Assembly: GCF_900110265.1 (NCBI RefSeq)
Contig: NZ_FODB01000008.1
Coordinates: 1 to 64,000, forward strand
Length of the DNA stretch: 64,000 bases
Source: Vreelandella aquamarina
GTDB lineage: Bacteria; Pseudomonadota; Gammaproteobacteria; Pseudomonadales; Halomonadaceae
Direction: 5' to 3'
Position 1 is the first letter of the stretch; every line of letters starts with the position of its first letter. Position numbers and translations under genes: made by a program. The notes under the pieces are model-generated. The model ran no database searches, was not told the DNA's origin, and saw nothing but the letters and a program-made list of their open reading frames with translations. This document shows, piece by piece, positions 8,734 to 23,655 of this stretch.

Positions 8734-8910
8734 ATGTACATCTACCGCATCATGCTATTTCTTGTGTTTGGCGGCTACCTGCTATCACCGCTGTTTATGG
8801 ATGGCTGGGGCGACCCGAGCGTGGCCTGGTACCGCCCTTTTGCGATTTGGGGCGTCCTGATTGCCCTGACGCTATGGCTTGAGCAGAAGAGGAAGTTAGA
8901 TGAACGCTGA
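8734..8910 (+). CDS. cbrX: Small membrane protein upstream of cbrA (CbrX-like)
   Basis: A 58-residue protein with two predicted membrane helices (residues about 5-20, IMLFLVFGGYLLSPLF, and about 35-50, FAIWGVLIALTLWLE). It ends in a charged tail, KRKLDER. GGAG lies seven bases before ATG 8734, and the gene starts one base after the gluQ stop. Its last 11 bases overlap the cbrA start, so it is translationally coupled to the kinase. This is the position and size of CbrX in Pseudomonas. Its biochemical job is not known; being made together with CbrA suggests it acts on, or tunes synthesis of, the kinase. Confidence 0.78.
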   Translation: MYIYRIMLFLVFGGYLLSPLFMDGWGDPSVAWYRPFAIWGVLIALTLWLEQKRKLDER

Positions 8911-11845
8911 GCTGATAGGCGTTGTATTACTGGGGCTTAGCTACCTGGGGCTGCTGTTTGGCTGCGGCATGGCCGTCGAGCGGGGCTGGGTGCCAGTGCG
9001 TATTACTCGCCACCCGATGGTGTATACCCTAGCGCTCGGCGTATACGCCAGCGCCTGGGCAATTTATGGCAGCATCGAATTAGCCGCGAATGCCGGGTTT
9101 GGCTACCTCGCTTACTACCTAGGGCCAGCGGGAGCTTTCTTACTCGCCCCTGTGCTGCTGGTACCGATTCAGCGCATTACTCGCACTTACCAGCTCTCTT
9201 CGTTGGCGGATCTGTTCGCCTTTCGCTACCGCTCCCGCTGGGCGGGAACGCTTGTCACGCTGCTTAGTCTGATTGCCGTACTACCGCTGCTGGGCATTCA
9301 AGTACACACCTTGAGCGACGCCGTGCAACTGCTAACCGGCAGCCGCTACAGCTCAGCGGTAGCGCTGCTGTTTTGCGCGGTCATTGCAGGCTGCGCCGTG
9401 CTGTTTGGCGCCCGCCACAGCCATCGGCACCGCCACGATACACTGCTGAGCGTCATCGCCTTCGAATCGGTGATCAAACTACTGGCCATGCTCGGGCTCG
9501 GTGCCATTGCCTTATGGTGGGTGTTTAACGGCCCTCAAGATTTACAGCGCTGGCTGGAAGGCCCGGGCGCGGCACTCCAGAGCGCCACCCCACAGCTAGA
9601 AGCCCCCCAGTGGCGCACGCTTCTGCTACTGTTTTTCGCGGCGGCCTTTATGATGCCGCACCTATTTCAGATCACCTTTGCCGAAAGCCTCTCTCGCCAT
9701 ACCTTGCTGCAGGCGAGCTGGACCTTGCCACTCTTTTTGCTACTGATGGCGCTACCGGTGCCGCTGATCTTATGGGCGGCGCAGTCGGCCAACGAGAGCG
9801 TGCCGCTCGCCGCTTACGCGGCGTATCTGATGACCGAGCACTGGTGGGTCGGCGCACTGGCGTTTATCGGCGGCCTAGCGGCCGCCAGCGGTACCATGAT
9901 GATGATCGCGCTCGCACTCTCCGGCATGGTATTGAACCACATCGTGCTGGTCGCCCGCCCGCCAGAGGCGCGTAGCGACCTCTACGGTTGGCTGCTGTGG
10001 CTGCGCCGTGCGCTGGTAGGGGCCGTAATCTTCGGCGGTTGGCTATTTGCTGAAAGCGTCGGGCGTTACCACTCTCTCACTAGCCTTGGGCTGGCTGCCT
10101 TTGTGGGCATGGCCCAGTGCCTACCGGGGCTGCTGGCGCTACTTTACTGGCCCGGCGCGAACCGCAAAGGCATGATTGCTGGCCTTATCGGTGGTATTGG
10201 CGTCTGGCTATGGGGGCTGTGGCTGCCGTTGCTATTCGACATCACCATGCCCGCGCTCCCGTTCACTCTGCTGATGCCCGCCGATGCCCCCGCGTGGTAC
10301 AACGCCACGCTGATTTCGCTAGCGGTGAATATCGTCCTGCTGATTGTGGTGTCGCTGTTTACGCGCATCTCAGAGGGCGAGCGTTCGGCGGCAGAAGCCT
10401 GCTCGGTGGATGCGGTCATCCGCTCGAAACGCCTACCGCTGGAAGCCGCCACGGCGGGTGACTTCCCCGCCCACTTAGCTCAGGCACTTGGTGATGAAGC
10501 CGCCAGTCGCGAGGTGGACCGCGCCTTAAAAGCGCTCAACCTGACCCCGCAAGAGCGCCGTCCCTATGCGCTGCGCCGTTTACGCGACCGCATTCAAGCC
10601 AACTTATCAGGGCTCATGGGGCCGTCGGTGGCGCGGGATATCGTGGATAGATACCTGCCCTATCGCCACGACGATGCTCCCGTCACCGATGATATTCACT
10701 TTGTAGAGAGCCGCTTAGAAGCCTACCGCTCGCGCCTCACCGGGCTTGCCAGAGAACTCGACGGGCTGCGCCGCCACCACCGTCAAACCCTAGCCTATCT
10801 GCCGGTGGGGCTGTGCGTTTTGGGCGACGACGATGAGCTTCTGATGTGGAACCAAGCGCTCTCCCAGCTCTCCGGCATCAGCGGCGAAAGCGTGATCGGC
10901 TCCCGACGCGACAGCCTGCCGCCGCCCTGGCCCACCCTACTGGGCAGCGTGCTGAATGCCAGCCAAACACCGCTGTACAAACAGGCGGTCACGCTGCACG
11001 GCAAAGACTACTTTTTGACGCTGCACAAAGCGGTGCTCAGCGGCCACGATAGTCGTGGCGGCAGCGTCATTCTGGTAGAGGATCACACCGAGATGAAATG
11101 GCTGGAAGAGGAGCTAGTGCACGCCGCGCGGCTCGCCTCCATTGGCCAGCTCGCCGCTGGTGTAGCCCACGAGATTGGCAACCCGATTACCGGCATCTCA
11201 TCGCTGGCGCAAAACCTGCGCTACGACACCGAAGACCCGGCGCTGCTGGAAACCGCCGACCAAATTCAGCAGCTCACTCAGCGGGTGACTAAAATCGTCA
11301 ACTCCCTGGTGGGATTTGCCCATGGCGGACGCCCCGCGCTACCGCTTCCCGCCGCGCCAGCATCGCTGAAAACGGTCAGCGAAGATGCGCTGCACTTGAT
11401 CCATTTAGCCCGCTCAGGCGAGGATGTCACCTTTACCAACGCCTGCCCAAGTGACATTGTGGTGCGCGGTGATGCACAGCGCCTGACCCAAGTCATGGTA
11501 AATTTACTGAGCAACGCCAAGGACGCCTGCCAGCCACAGGGTACGGTACGTATTGAGGCAGGCACCCAGGCCAGCCACGCTTGGTGGCGCGTCGTCGATG
11601 ACGGCCATGGGATTGATCCCAGCGTTAAACACCGTCTGTTCGAACCGTTCACCACCACCAAACCCCCGGGTGAAGGCACCGGACTTGGGTTATCGTTGGC
11701 GTATCAAATTATCAATGAGCACCAAGGCAAAATAGAGGTCGCTTCACCACCTCCCGGAAAGCCTCGCGGCACGGCCATTACGCTATGGCTACCGCTTTAC
11801 CAACAGGATGATCACTTGCCCCATGCCCAGGATACTGATTGTTGA
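8900..11845 (+). CDS. cbrA: CbrA-type transporter-like sensor histidine kinase
   Basis: A 981-residue inner-membrane protein. Residues 1 to about 500 form a sodium:solute symporter-like domain with about a dozen hydrophobic helices. A linker and a PAS-like segment (about 630-720, [17 protein letters not shown]) follow. Then come HisKA ([19 protein letters not shown], phospho-His near residue 757) and HATPase with N box [10 protein letters not shown]1 DDGHGID and G2 [10 protein letters not shown]. In Pseudomonas CbrA senses carbon/nitrogen status, and its transporter domain can take up histidine. It would phosphorylate CbrB, whose gene overlaps its 3' end. AGAGGAAG precedes the ATG. Confidence 0.94.
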
Positions 11846-13205
11846 AGATGAAGCGATTATTCGCAGCGCGCTAAAGCGCTTACTGGAACGTCATCACTAC
11901 AGCGTCAGCGAAGCGGCCAGCGCCGAAGAGGCCCGTACGCAGCCGCTCAGCGACTTTGACCTCATCATCAGCGACCTGCGCCTGCCGGGGGAGCCGGGCA
12001 CGACGCTCATTGAGCTAGCGGCCCCCGCCCCGGTATTGATCATGACCAGCTACGCCAGCATGCGTTCGGCGGTGGATGCGCTCAAGCAGGGCGCCGTTGA
12101 TTATGTTGCCAAGCCCTTCGACCACACCGAGCTATTGGAAACGGTTGAACGCATTCTGCATAAGCAGTCGATGCAGCAGGGCACGCCGCCTGATATCACC
12201 GACGGAGGTGGCGGCCGTCAAACCATGATTGGCGACTGCATCGCCATGCAGGAGGTTTACACGCGCATTCGTAAAACCGCGCCTGCGGACGTCACCGTGC
12301 TCATCCAAGGCGAATCAGGCACTGGCAAGGAGCTGGTCGCGCGCGCCATCCATCAGCAGAGCAAGCGCGCCAAAGCGCCGCTGATTTGCGTGAACTGCGC
12401 GGCGATCCCCGAAACGCTGATCGAGTCCGAGCTGTTTGGCCATGAGAAAGGAGCGTTTACCGGTGCCAGCGCGGCGCGCACCGGCTTGGTCGAAGCCGCC
12501 GACGGCGGCACGCTTTTTCTCGATGAAATTGGCGAGCTGCCCCTGGACGCCCAGGCGCGATTGCTGCGGGTACTGCAAGAGGGCGAAATCCGCAAAATTG
12601 GCTCCGTGGAAACCCGCCATGTGGACGTTCGCTTGATTGCCGCCACTCACCGTGACCTGCGCGCGCTTTCCAAAAGCGGCGAGTTCCGGCTTGATTTGTA
12701 CTACCGGCTGAACGTGATGCAGATTGCCCTGCCACCGCTACGCGAGCGCGAAGATGACGTACTTAAAATCGCCGACATCCTGCTGGAAAAGGCCTGCAAG
12801 CGCCACGAGCGCCCCGGGCTGCGGCTCTCTAGAGCGGCTCGTCAGGATCTACGCGACTACCCCTGGCCCGGTAACGTGCGCGAGCTTGAAAATGCTCTGG
12901 AGCGCGGAGTTATTCTCGCCGAAGGGCATTTGATTCACCCCGATGATTTGGGACTTGGCCCGGCGACTAACCGACCTCACCCACCTGCCGTTAGCCCTGG
13001 GGCTTCCACAAATGACGACGCCACGACGGCTGACGAAGACGACCTTTCCCTCGAAGATTACTTCCAGCATTTTGTGCTGGAACACCAGGACCAAATGAGC
13101 GAAACCGAGCTGGCCCAGAAACTAGGTATTAGCCGTAAAAACTTATGGGAACGTCGCCAGCGACTGGGCATTCCGCGGAAAAAAACTGCCCGCCGCCAGA
13201 ATTAG
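11823..13205 (+). CDS. cbrB: CbrB, NtrC-family sigma54 activator
   Basis: A 460-residue response regulator. The receiver domain has ILIVEDEA, the phospho-acceptor Asp in [10 protein letters not shown], and the conserved Lys in VAKPFDH. The AAA+ domain carries Walker A GESGTGKE, the sigma54-contacting loop GAFTGA, Walker [13 protein letters not shown], and the arginine region [10 protein letters not shown] Fis-type helix-turn-helix lies at the C-terminus ([23 protein letters not shown]). ATG 11823 gives the family N-terminus and overlaps cbrA by 23 bases. The intact GAFTGA loop means it should work with sigma54; a sigma54-type promoter lies 230 bp downstream. Confidence 0.94.
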
Positions 13206-13296
13206 CGTACCGATTGGCTGTTTTTGCAGGGGCTACCCCCTGATCATAAGACTAACGTCCAATAGATTGATTTTCATAAGAAATACTCAAAATATC

Positions 13297-13360
13297 GTTA
13301 CCCAGACACTGTTACCTTCCCACACAACGAAGCGAAAAATAGGGTCAAAAACGGGTAACA
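13297..13360 (+). promoter_or_regulatory. Candidate CbrB upstream activator sites
   Basis: GTTAC occurs at 13297-13301 and as TGTTAC at 13310-13315; the inverted half-site GTAACA lies at 13355-13360. They sit 75-140 bases upstream of the sigma54 promoter at 13435, the normal distance for an NtrC-type activator. My recollection is that CbrB sites in Pseudomonas are TGTTAC/GTAACA palindromes. The half-site spacing here (39 bases) looks wide, so the pairing is a guess. Confidence 0.45.
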
Positions 13361-13434
13361 CTTTCCCTTCCAATTAGTTCCCTGGCCCACCCAAAAATCG
13401 CCAAACCATTGAAATACATAACGTATCAAATGAG

Positions 13435-13450
13435 TGGCACGGCGAGTGCA
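13435..13450 (+). promoter_or_regulatory. Sigma54 (RpoN) promoter of the CrcZ-like RNA
   Basis: TGGCACGGCGAGTGCA has the invariant GG (13436-13437) and GC (13448-13449) separated by exactly ten bases, with the full TGGCAC minus-24 element. Transcription should start about 12 bases later, near the G run at 13459-13461. It lies in the gene-free stretch after cbrB and faces the A-rich RNA region. Confidence 0.82.
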
Positions 13451-13458
13451 ATATTACT

Positions 13459-13945
13459 GGGTAAGAAGAACAAACTGGGCAGCGCGGTTAGTCGCTAACA
13501 AAAACAACATGACACCGCCCCGACCTGAGCCAAAACAAAAACAACAAGGCCAGGTAGAGATAACGGCACGAACAAGAACAACAGGCTTGAGTCTCATGAC
13601 TTGCACGCGCAGCACAGGGTTACCTAGCGGAGCCAAGCAAACGCGCAGCAAACAATAACAATACACAGCAAGTGCCCAAATAAGGACGCGACGTACACAA
13701 GGTCTGCACCCAAACAACAACAATAGCAGCATAGGTGTACACCCCCGGAGCCAATAACAACTCGCCGGGAGAGAAAAGTTCGCGGTTGGATTATTGTTTT
13801 GAATACGAGGCGGTCGGAATCAGAGTGGTTCTTTACGCCTGCCGACTGCGGTGCGTATTCAGGGCGATGTGCCATCATGAATAAAAACAGCAGCATGGAT
13901 GCTGATTGTCTGCTTTATAGGGGAGGCTCACGTAGCCTCCCCTTT
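13459..13945 (+). ncRNA. crcZ: CrcZ-like Hfq-sequestering small RNA (candidate)
   Basis: No plausible protein gene fills 13206-14102. From the predicted sigma54 start to a hairpin at 13919-13943 the plus strand holds eight matches to the Hfq/Crc motif AANAANAA: starting at 13463, 13497, 13535, 13571, 13651, 13713, 13753 and 13880. About 0.1 would be expected by chance in this length. Pseudomonas CrcZ lies at exactly this place between cbrB and pcnB, is driven by CbrB and sigma54, and titrates Hfq to relieve catabolite repression. GAATACG (13801-13807) and CGTATTC (13854-13860) pair to close a structured 3' part. Both ends are predictions; about 485 nt would be longer than the roughly 400 nt of Pseudomonas CrcZ. 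Confidence 0.8.
13919..13945 (+). terminator. Hairpin ending the CrcZ-like RNA
   Basis: AGGGGAGGCT (13919-13928) pairs perfectly with AGCCTCCCCT (13934-13943) around CACGT. The following T run is short (TTT, then CC), so termination may be partial. Some read-through into pcnB is possible. Confidence 0.65.
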
Positions 13946-14102
13946 CCGCGTTTACGGGTGGCATTGACATCAGGTCCGACGGCTCATTGCAAACCGCTCT
14001 TTGCAAGCCCCAGGGGGTCGGATACACTCAACCCTTTACCGTCCTCCATACGGTCACGTTTTTCGAAACTGTTTTCGATACACTGCGAGTCGATATCGCC
14101 GC

Positions 14103-15491
14103 ATGTTTAAAGGATTTACCCGTTTATTACATAGCCCGGGAGAGCACTTGAAATCCCTGCTCGATTCCCCTGAGAGCGCCTCTGATGCGCTCAGTCCTCG
14201 TATTATTCCGCGCTCCGAGCATCCCGTCTCTCGTCAGCAAATCAGTGAAGCCGCGCTCAAGGTGCTGTACCGCCTCAATGGGGCTGGTTTCGATGCCTAT
14301 CTTGTCGGTGGCTGCATTCGCGACGCGCTGCTGGGCAAAATGCCGAAAGACTTCGATGTTGCCACCAACGCAACGCCCGAGCAGGTGCGCGACCTATTTC
14401 GCAACTCACGCCTGATTGGCCGCCGCTTCCGCATCGTTCACGTGCGCTTTGGCCGCGAAGTCATCGAGGTGACCACCTTCCGTGGTAAACCCCAGGACGA
14501 GCACGGCGACCATATCGCTCACCAGTCGGACGATGGCCTGCTGCTGCGGGACAACGTGTGGGGCAATATCGAAGAAGACGCGCTGCGCCGTGACTTCACC
14601 GTCAATGCGCTCTACTACAATATTGCTGATTTCACGATCCACGACTTTGCCAACGGCGCGCGGGATATTGAGTCACGCACGCTGCGGCTGATCGGCGACC
14701 CCACGACCCGCTACCGTGAAGACCCGGTACGGATGCTGCGCGCGGTTCGCTTTGCAGCCAAGCTCGACTTCACCATCGAGCCCGCCACCGAAGCGCCGAT
14801 GTACGACTTGGCGCCGCTGCTGCTGCAAATTCCACCTGCGCGCCTGTTTGATGAAGTGCTCAAGCTGTTTATGGCGGGCCACGGATTAATCACTTTCCGC
14901 CTGCTCAGCCATTACAATCTGTTTGGCATGCTCTTCCCGGAATCAGAAGAAGCCATGGCCGATGCCGCTTGGGCAGAAGAGCTGATTGAACAAGCGTTGA
15001 CCAATACCGATAAGCGTATTGCTGACGGCCGTCCAGTCACGCCAGCGTTCTTATTAGCGGCTTTTTTATGGGCACCTGTGGCCCATCGCCAAGCGGCGCT
15101 TGAGCGCGAAGGTATGCCCGCCGTGCCTGCATTACAAACAGCAGCGCAAGAGGTTGTCTCGCGTCAGCTGCAGCATATTTCGATTCCCAAGCGCTTTGGT
15201 ATCCCCATGCGTGAAATCTGGGAGCTGCAAGCACGCTTGCCGATGCGCCGGGGCAAACGGGCTTTCCAAACCCGCGAGCATCCGCGCTTCCGTGCTGCTT
15301 ATGACCTCCTGTTGCTACGTGAACAGGCGGGTGAAATTCCCCGTGGGCTGGGCGACTGGTGGACGGCATTTCAGAAAGGCGATGAGCACGAACAGCTCCG
15401 CCTACTGCAAAAAGTCGGCAGCGATCCTGCCAGCCAAGGTGACCGCCGGCGCAAAAAACGCCGCAAGCCGCGGAAGGCGAACAGTGAATAA
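14103..15491 (+). CDS. pcnB: Poly(A) polymerase I
   Basis: A 462-residue PcnB that adds poly(A) tails to RNA 3' ends and promotes decay. Seen: the nucleotidyltransferase motif YLVGGCIRDALLGKMPKDFDVATNA near residue 65 with the metal-binding Asp pair, the RNA-binding block RRDFTVNALYY, and YREDPVRMLRAVRFAAKL typical of class II polymerases. A basic tail (RRRKKRRKPRKA) closes the protein. ATG 14103 was preferred over the longer open frame from 14001 because the family starts there. The start codon of folK lies inside its last codons. Confidence 0.94.
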   Translation: MFKGFTRLLHSPGEHLKSLLDSPESASDALSPRIIPRSEHPVSRQQISEAALKVLYRLNGAGFDAYLVGGCIRDALLGKMPKDFDVATNATPEQVRDLFRNSRLIGRRFRIVHVRFGREVIEVTTFRGKPQDEHGDHIAHQSDDGLLLRDNVWGNIEEDALRRDFTVNALYYNIADFTIHDFANGARDIESRTLRLIGDPTTRYREDPVRMLRAVRFAAKLDFTIEPATEAPMYDLAPLLLQIPPARLFDEVLKLFMAGHGLITFRLLSHYNLFGMLFPESEEAMADAAWAEELIEQALTNTDKRIADGRPVTPAFLLAAFLWAPVAHRQAALEREGMPAVPALQTAAQEVVSRQLQHISIPKRFGIPMREIWELQARLPMRRGKRAFQTREHPRFRAAYDLLLLREQAGEIPRGLGDWWTAFQKGDEHEQLRLLQKVGSDPASQGDRRRKKRRKPRKANSE

Positions 15492-23279: not shown

Positions 23280-23549
23280 TTAACGGCGCAGACCCAGACG
23301 CTGAATCAGAGACTGATAGCGTTCGAAATCTTTACGCTTCAGGTAGTCCAGCAGCTTACGACGCTGGTTTACCATGCGGATCAGACCACGACGAGAGTGG
23401 TGATCCTGCTTGTTGGTCTTGAAGTGGTCCTGCAGGCCGTTGATGTTGGCGCTCAGCAGTGCAACCTGAACTTCAGGGGAACCGGTATCGTTATCGCCGC
23501 GGCCGTATTCGTTGACGATCTCGGCCTTTTTCTCAGCGGTTAATGCCAT
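23280..23549 (-). CDS. rpsO: 30S ribosomal protein S15
   Basis: An 89-residue primary 16S-rRNA-binding protein that nucleates the small-subunit platform. The family sequence is complete: the start [62 protein letters not shown] and the end [23 protein letters not shown] precedes the ATG. It lies between truB and pnp, the usual order. Confidence 0.97.
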
Positions 23550-23655
23550 CTGTCTCTCCAGTAAGCAATATGCCTAAAAATGAATGGGTGAGACCACGCA
23601 TATTTGCAGTCTCAAGCGACTATTTTCGCGCAAATCGCCACATCCTTGCAACGCT

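Follow-up and report, generated by a model that had tools for sequence, protein, structure and literature searches.

Organization of the cbrB-pcnB locus

The window, by which we mean the whole stretch of 64,000 nucleotides of Vreelandella aquamarina DNA that was analysed, contains a gene which we take to be gluQ, followed by a small cbrX-like ORF, cbrA and cbrB (Table 1). The gap under study (13206–14102) is delimited by the cbrB stop at 13205 and by the start of the pcnB frame, as used here, at 14103. The CbrB protein is 60–64% identical to the proteins encoded at loci L002, L003 and L005–L008, and the two further transporter-kinase proteins of the window's genome (G000) have just 31–34% identity to the cbrA product. 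The small ORF upstream of cbrA has no Pfam or NCBIfam match, its homologues, 44% and 69% identical, being found at the equivalent site of two further genera; the name cbrX is an inference by analogy with the locus described in the accessible part of PMC6591292. A blastn comparison of the whole gap with plasmids gave no match. Elsewhere in the window (23493–23617, minus strand) an Rfam S15 ribosomal leader is detected barely above its cut-off (45.1 versus 39.5 bits).

Table 1. Features of the cbrX-pcnB region, in window coordinates
Feature	Position	Strand	Basis or remark
Small membrane-protein ORF upstream of cbrA, at the position of Pseudomonas cbrX	8734..8910	+	ORF list
cbrA, predicted sensor kinase, transporter-like N-terminus	8900..11845	+	HisKA and HATPase_c domains
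cbrB, sigma-54 response regulator	11808..13205	+	Response_reg and Sigma54_activat domains
Putative CbrB subsite F, TGTTAC, 125 nt upstream of sigma-54 box	13310..13315	+	sequence match, no binding data
Putative CbrB subsite R, GTAACA, 80 nt upstream of sigma-54 box	13355..13360	+	sequence match, no binding data
Sigma-54 promoter, TGGCAC-N6-TGCA (TGGCACGGCGAGTGCA, GG-N10-GC)	13435..13450	+	
Predicted CrcZ-type RNA, ~486 nt	13460..13945	+	promoter and terminator positions
CA motif 1, AAGAAGAACAA	13463..13473	+	
CA motif 2, AACAAAAACAA	13497..13507	+	
CA motif 3, AACAAAAACAACAA	13534..13547	+	
CA motif 4, AACAAGAACAA	13571..13581	+	
CA motif 5, AACAATAACAA	13651..13661	+	
CA motif 6, AACAACAACAA	13713..13723	+	
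CA motif 7, AATAACAA	13753..13760	+	
CA motif 8, AATAAAAA	13880..13887	+	
Halomonadaceae hairpin module: 15-bp outer stem (13793-13807 with 13854-13868) and 6-bp inner stem	13793..13868	+	
Terminator-like hairpin and short T run	13920..13945	+	read from sequence
pcnB, poly(A) polymerase, downstream neighbour	14103..15491	+	NCBIfam TIGR01942, E 1.8e-162

Features of the predicted RNA

The GG-N10-GC sigma-54 promoter put forward in the original prediction is indeed read at its place, and the start of the RNA, 11 nt after the promoter GC, is inferred from it. The Hfq CA motif is given in the accessible part of PMC3480352 as AAnAAnAA, with C or U preferred. Our recount agrees with the eight motifs previously claimed on one strand, as eight merged AANAANAA clusters are found on the plus strand between 13463 and 13887, with one hit on the opposite strand. 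The chance expectation of about 0.1 that had accompanied this claim is too low: from the A content of the gap 0.71 sites are expected, at even base use 0.22, and 100 dinucleotide shuffles of a 969-base stretch (which extends 72 bases into the pcnB frame) yield 0.79 clusters, with a maximum of 3. The observed excess is nevertheless about tenfold. The terminal hairpin, announced as having 10 bp, consists of GGGGAGGCT-CACGT-AGCCTCCCC (13920–13942), with 9 bp, or 10 if a flanking A-T pair is included, and is followed by TTTCC.

The predicted RNA has a fold z-score of −3.6, with 1 of 100 shuffles equally good. We have aligned it with RNAs predicted in a chosen subset of genomes, which excluded L244 on account of a doubtful promoter call and gave 61 extracted sequences in total. 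A terminator-like hairpin is present in 56 of the 61, window included, the five lacking it having been dropped, and the predicted lengths range from 320 to 554 nt. Within the predicted fold of the window RNA the bases of the CA motifs have a mean probability of 0.90 of being unpaired; across the 56 predicted RNAs the mean is 0.91 for CA motifs against 0.59 for other A's, the motifs having the higher value in 56 of 56.

A covariance search of the region with the Rfam CrcZ model, which had been suggested as a check, came out below the cut-off. No Rfam family matches the gap at its gathering score, and a permissive search gives for CrcZ (RF01675) 12.8 and 12.1 bits (E 0.76 and 1.3), against a gathering score of 95. 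RF01675 has no hit in the whole window genome, and likewise none in 14 control genomes. As a positive control, among 16 loci the model recovers five pseudomonad loci with 272–350 bits (L003 from Pseudomonas, L007 from Serpens and three from family f21), the other 11 giving nothing above the cut-off; since the three f21 loci are matched, we take f21 as Pseudomonadaceae. Because the covariance model fails to match, membership of RF01675 as modelled (12.8 bits versus 95) is rejected for the window RNA.

Conservation within the family

A cbrB match at E ≤ 1e-150 is found in 112 of the 151 genomes of the family. We have read 78 gaps, from 69 family genomes (L082–L150), the window and eight named loci, among which L001 (a duplicate of L130) and L004 (Halomonas maura) belong to the window's family. 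The window genome shares its family (f1) with Litchfieldella anticariensis, and the gap of G029 is identical to that of the Litchfieldella locus L001. In 76 of the 78 cases pcnB adjoins the gap, 71 of these being from the window's family when L001 and L130 are counted apart. Every one of the 76 contains 5–11 sense and 0–3 antisense clusters, above all 100 shuffles of its own sequence, so that the loss of motifs in relatives with kept flanking genes, which would have spoken against the original prediction, is not seen. The two gaps without pcnB on the locus have 0 clusters (L002, a MAG contig) and 1 cluster (L146, from G024). The latter genome is the one exception (genus g24; L146, L246, L256, L257): cbrA-cbrB is present and a CA array is detected neither beside cbrB nor beside pcnB, but cbrB and pcnB lie far apart on the contig.

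According to the portion of PMC6296734 that is available, the CbrB subsites are TGTTAC (F) and GTAACA or GTAACg (R), and no single subsite is essential for activation. Upstream of the sigma-54 site, TGTTAC is present in all 68 cbrB-bearing family gaps scored, mostly at 123–126 nt (range 114–139), and GTAAC[AG] likewise in 68 of 68, at 79–81 nt, where shuffles predict 0.26 gaps with both. This scoring omitted L001–L008, L146, which has no array, and L130, whose gap is that of L001; among the omitted loci, L003 and L005–L008 are from other families, L001 and L004 from the window's family, and L002 is without pcnB. In the three f21 loci F stands at 124–125, R1 at 102–103 and R2 at 81–82 nt upstream, the Halomonas layout thus being the f21 layout minus the middle R1, with agreeing F and R2 positions. 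As a feature of membership, a sigma-54 promoter with CbrB subsites is therefore satisfied with respect to F and R2, R1 being absent.

On a separate matter, the Rfam 'P36 sRNA' model (RF01679) matches upstream of crcZ at L190:194-256, L170:2537-2599 (minus strand), L191:167-227 and L003:7477-7537. Since each of these four matches holds one F and two R subsites, RF01679 may describe there an activator-binding region rather than an RNA.

Upstream of the terminator lies a hairpin module in which 98.7% of cells pair in an alignment (A1) of 41 of the 56 aligned sequences, the module-less L245 being among those left out. Three pairs of the inner stem change on both sides (0.9 in shuffles, with 6 of 500 as high), and 9 of the 15 outer-stem pairs never vary among the 41 sequences; as far as the alignment goes, the outer stem is supported by conservation, not by covariation. 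The module model (R1) has one match per genome in 18 of 18 family genomes and matches 1 of 372 other genomes of the order (E 0.004). Over 54 loci a strong match is obtained only at two named Halomonadaceae loci, and there is none at the g17, g18 and g24 loci, the module not being seen in L245 (g17). Judged from these comparisons, a near-invariant 3' hairpin marks the predicted Halomonadaceae RNA. A coding sequence was also considered for the module and is not favoured, because its lengths vary by non-multiples of three.

Protein partners and candidate targets

The proposed search of the genome for hfq and crc found both genes, and RpoN is encoded as well. The Hfq protein (L155, 82 aa) aligns over residues 1–77 with 1u1s, presumably the P. 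aeruginosa Hfq (E 1.1e-39), and has F in place of Y25. This residue matters in P. aeruginosa Hfq, the Y25D variant failing, as stated in the accessible part of PMC4063720. The suggestion that Hfq might act alone, made when no crc was visible in the window, is not supported, because a crc gene is present at L154:1492-2256; all 151 family genomes have a Crc match at E ≤ 1e-40, residues having been checked only in that of the window. The assigned protein has E values of 7.5e-76 to 2myi, which is labelled Exodeoxyribonuclease III and which we take to be P. syringae Crc, and of 2.4e-73 to 4jg3 (Catabolite repression control protein). As the ExoIII-type 2jc5 follows closely (E 4e-66), the score alone leaves Crc versus ExoIII undecided. 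At three positions that we assume to be catalytic, it departs from the ExoIII of the same genome, with QN for QE, GTWH for GDFN and SEFAP for SDHAP.

The same protein is above the NCBIfam cut-offs of the exodeoxyribonuclease III models TIGR00633 and TIGR00195; since this occurs despite the changes at presumably catalytic residues, Crc may be hidden in annotations as a nuclease. Also, the 471-aa ORF located where RpoN is matched has a sigma-54-like promoter ~76 nt in front of it (L287:15410-15425, plus strand), from which RpoN autoregulation is possible.

We have scanned the called gene starts (−40 to +20) in 1,014,115 bases of the window genome, comprising 869 called genes. AANAANAA occurs 34 times in sense against 14 in antisense (p 0.003) and AAYAAYAA 15 against 4 times (p 0.01); the gene caller is crude, and the scan window was chosen on the first batch. 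This batch had 17 versus 8 and 8 versus 2, respectively, and the second batch alone has 17 versus 6 (p 0.017) and 7 versus 2 (p 0.09). None of six other 60-nt windows has a sense excess at p < 0.05, and the CA-motif excess at called starts is moderate. Among the 15 AAYAAYAA hits, seven are above an NCBIfam cut-off (malE, eda, mgsA, paaK, 3-hydroxyacyl-CoA dehydrogenase, mutY, and carA with a doubtful start), six match below cut-offs only (a sugar hydrolase hit by the BglA, TreC and TreS models, a UrtD/LivG-like ATPase, a tartronate-semialdehyde-reductase-like protein, a YciA-like thioesterase, a GST-like protein and a ClC-like channel) and two have no family. The hits mix catabolic and non-catabolic genes.

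The locus outside the family

CbrB is matched at E ≤ 1e-130 in 292 of the 390 genomes of the order. The 40 downstream regions that we have read were drawn, not at random, from the best listed matches. Among these best listed 40, pcnB is the neighbour in 35, which represent 23 families, and in 35 of 35 the sense clusters (2–18) exceed the antisense ones (0–6), with shuffle p ≤ 0.03 in 29 and not in 6. As to the subsites in front of the best sigma-54 site, 27 of the best listed 40 have both F and R, 7 have R alone and 6 have neither.

Tandem CrcZ-like copies are observed within the cbrB-pcnB gap of L166, L159, L180, L186, L187 and L194, from other families of the order, with three sigma-54 promoters in L166 and two in the other five, each having at least one CbrB subsite and then CA motifs. 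At L158, L161, L162 and L195 (families f6 and f8), cbrB is without a downstream pcnB and there is no clear CA array (0–2 clusters).

Genomes without CbrAB or CbrA

Thirty-nine of the 151 family genomes have no cbrB match at 1e-150. Twenty of these, the ones listed by name, and the cbrB-bearing G024 make up the 21 family genomes examined via pcnB. Eighteen of the 20 are cbrB-free and two (G006, G057) carry cbrB. Upstream of pcnB there are 5–11 clusters in 20 of the 21, and none in G024. CbrB was not found in the 18 genomes, from seven genera (best hits 43–45% identity, E 2e-97 to 8e-88), and neither was CbrA, for which the best hits, with 30–35% identity, are the class of protein that the window genome has in addition to CbrA. 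In eight longer upstream regions, one or two per cbrB-free genus, gluQ precedes the array in seven, and cbrX, cbrA and cbrB are detected in none of the eight.

In 17 of these 18 genomes the best sigma-54-like site scores 9 or 10 of 10 (in L244 it scores 8 and the promoter is uncertain), and both CbrB subsites together are found in none of the 18, one genome having F and another R. All 18 have an element GCACCA (1.4 expected) no more than 250 nt upstream of the best sigma-54 site, 17 of them at 132–144 nt. It is also present in 38 of 69 cbrB-bearing gaps (6.0 expected; L130, left out of the 68 of the subsite count, was restored here), at 132–134 nt in 35 of the 38. The element is absent from the window and, among the matches listed, none of the 38 is from the window's genus. 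With respect to NtrC as its activator, the perfect dyad GCACCA-N5-TGGTGC is found in 4 of 10 genomes, a comparison that is uninformative because a reversed control pattern is equally frequent (4 of 10). Seven sigma-54 promoters with an ORF downstream were found in 60 own-genome stretches, and none of the seven has GCACCA at the crcZ distance.

In a PcnB tree of 69 sequences the cbrB-free genomes form two clades, of 13 (support 0.978) and 5 sequences (support 1.0), between which cbrB-bearing genera stand. At least two losses of cbrAB are probable on this tree, which, being of a single gene, falls short of proof.

An eighth genus (g7: G030, G057, G006; L333, L334, L335; case INTERMEDIATE) has cbrB, 58–68% identical, directly after gluQ, and cbrX and cbrA are absent from all three loci; in G030, the only g7 genome searched as a whole, the best CbrA hit is 33% identical. 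Since G030 (L150) keeps F and R before the array without cbrA, the subsites, as motif matches, track cbrB and not cbrA. The accessible part of PMC6296734 describes CbrB as barely dependent on phosphorylation, which would fit a CbrB without CbrA in g7.

Interpretation of the locus

We consider it very likely that 13460–13945 corresponds to a CrcZ-type RNA which, driven by CbrB and sigma-54, sequesters Hfq with Crc and thereby relieves catabolite repression, where expression, Hfq binding, direction of control and signal are all inferred from Pseudomonas; the decoy mechanism of CrcZ is that of P. aeruginosa, as described in the available portion of PMC4063720. What supports this reading at the level of sequence are the parts of the locus, their conservation, the agreement between subsites and cbrB, the largely unpaired state that folding predicts for the motifs, and the motif excess at called gene starts. 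Among the features of the functional kind, those present besides the promoter are the position between cbrB and pcnB, several AANAANAA motifs (eight) unpaired in predicted folds, and genes for Hfq, Crc and RpoN elsewhere in the genome. The evidence thus favours the original proposal of a CrcZ-type RNA outside Pseudomonas, through family conservation, subsites in 68 of 68 gaps, unpaired motifs, the three partner genes and the moderate start-site excess, and supports a positional and, by inference, functional counterpart of CrcZ that is not RF01675.

On a poor carbon source CbrA and CbrB would become active, and CbrB would bind F (13310) and R (13355) and activate the sigma-54 RNA polymerase at 13435–13450. 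The transcript of ~486 nt would then present eight mostly single-stranded A-rich motifs to the distal face of Hfq, which would bind together with Crc; Hfq and Crc would in this way be pulled off catabolic mRNAs, whose ribosome-binding sites carry CA motifs, and these mRNAs would be translated, malE, eda, paaK, the sugar hydrolase and 3-hydroxyacyl-CoA dehydrogenase being candidates. Against this reading count the lack of transcript data, the failure of the Rfam model, the missing R1, the short T run of the terminator, the F for Y25 in Hfq, the overlap of Crc and ExoIII scores, the moderate start-site excess, with mutY, a ClC-like channel and carA (its start doubtful) among the AAYAAYAA hits, and G024.

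Transcription not being shown, and single shuffles reaching 7–8 clusters in some A-rich relatives, the A-rich stretches could be thought an effect of composition, a spacer or a 5' leader of pcnB, without any regulatory RNA. This we find hardly credible, as the 76 pcnB-adjacent gaps have strand asymmetry and an excess over every shuffle, subsites and promoter are regularly spaced, and cbrB-free genomes lose the CbrB subsites and keep the array. Very unlikely, too, is an RNA specific to Halomonadaceae whose main role resides in the 3' module, as a domain for protein binding or base pairing, with A-rich motifs that merely recruit Hfq as for an ordinary Hfq-dependent sRNA. The strong conservation of the module, with its invariant outer-stem pairs, and its distribution (18 of 18 family genomes, 1 of 372 others) do speak in its favour, yet the g17 and g18 loci that the model misses, L245 included, keep 5 and 7 clusters, and it is the CA array, not the module, that is common to the cbrB-pcnB loci of 23 other families; also, 5–11 Hfq sites would seem more than one base-pairing sRNA needs.

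Finally, the RNA may be real and bind Hfq while its output is a general titration of Hfq, affecting stress, storage or PHA metabolism, and not carbon catabolite repression. We regard this as very unlikely: physiology data are lacking and non-catabolic genes are among the start-site hits, but the 15 AAYAAYAA hits also comprise genes of sugar and aromatic catabolism, and the CbrB subsites link the promoter to the CbrAB system. The reading as a CrcZ-type decoy relieving catabolite repression is thus the one that we retain.

Relation to known systems and significance

The window RNA resembles CrcZ of Pseudomonas in its cbrB-pcnB position, sigma-54 promoter, F and R2 distances, several CA motifs and the presence of Hfq and Crc genes. 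According to the accessible part of PMC4063720, CrcZ has 407 nt and six A-rich stretches, compared with a predicted ~486 nt and eight clusters here. Unlike CrcZ, it has no significant RF01675 match, lacks the middle CbrB subsite and has an extra 3' hairpin module, and some relatives of the window hold the RNA gene without CbrAB. CrcY and CrcX, second copies of the decoy in Pseudomonas and Azotobacter, are the same kind of RNA under CbrB; in contrast, the 3' module is matched once per Halomonadaceae genome (18 genomes), and the extra copies at the six other-family loci sit in tandem inside the cbrB-pcnB gap. With CsrB and RsmZ it shares repeated protein-binding motifs that would sequester a translational repressor, these being A-rich Hfq sites rather than GGA hairpin loops.

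In the parts available, a 2022 review presents CbrAB as unique to Pseudomonadaceae and the cbrA-cbrB-crcZ arrangement as described only in Pseudomonas and Azotobacter (PMC8871633), and a 2018 study has CbrAB as exclusive to pseudomonads (PMC6296734). No description of an RNA of this kind in Halomonadaceae was found in literature titles and the starts of abstracts; as most subscription journals are outside this coverage, its absence from print is not shown. The accessible parts of PMC5073097 (cbr transcripts in a marine community), PMC13414033 (engineered sRNA in Halomonas) and PMC13022988 (CbrA structure) contain no such Halomonadaceae RNA.

CbrB, the CbrB subsites and the CA-motif array are now placed in many families of the order and in Halomonadaceae, and what is new with respect to CrcZ is the 3' module and an RNA gene that persists where CbrAB is gone. 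Very probably the gap encodes a small RNA that soaks up Hfq and so switches on the use of poorer foods, transcription and Hfq binding being inferred. Halomonadaceae are used as producers of PHA and ectoine, and with the array and CbrB found in them carbon catabolite control there becomes directly testable.

On balance, we lean towards the view that in this family the decoy RNA is the conserved node and the sensor is exchangeable: at least two lineages, comprising seven genera, would have lost cbrX-cbrA-cbrB and the subsite pair and kept the CA array and a sigma-54-like promoter, presumably under another sigma-54 activator acting via GCACCA, and a further genus would keep cbrB and its subsites, cbrA having been lost from the locus. 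If this is true, catabolite control in such genera would answer to a different signal. The genera free of cbrAB or of cbrA offer a natural experiment for studying the change of input of a global regulatory RNA.
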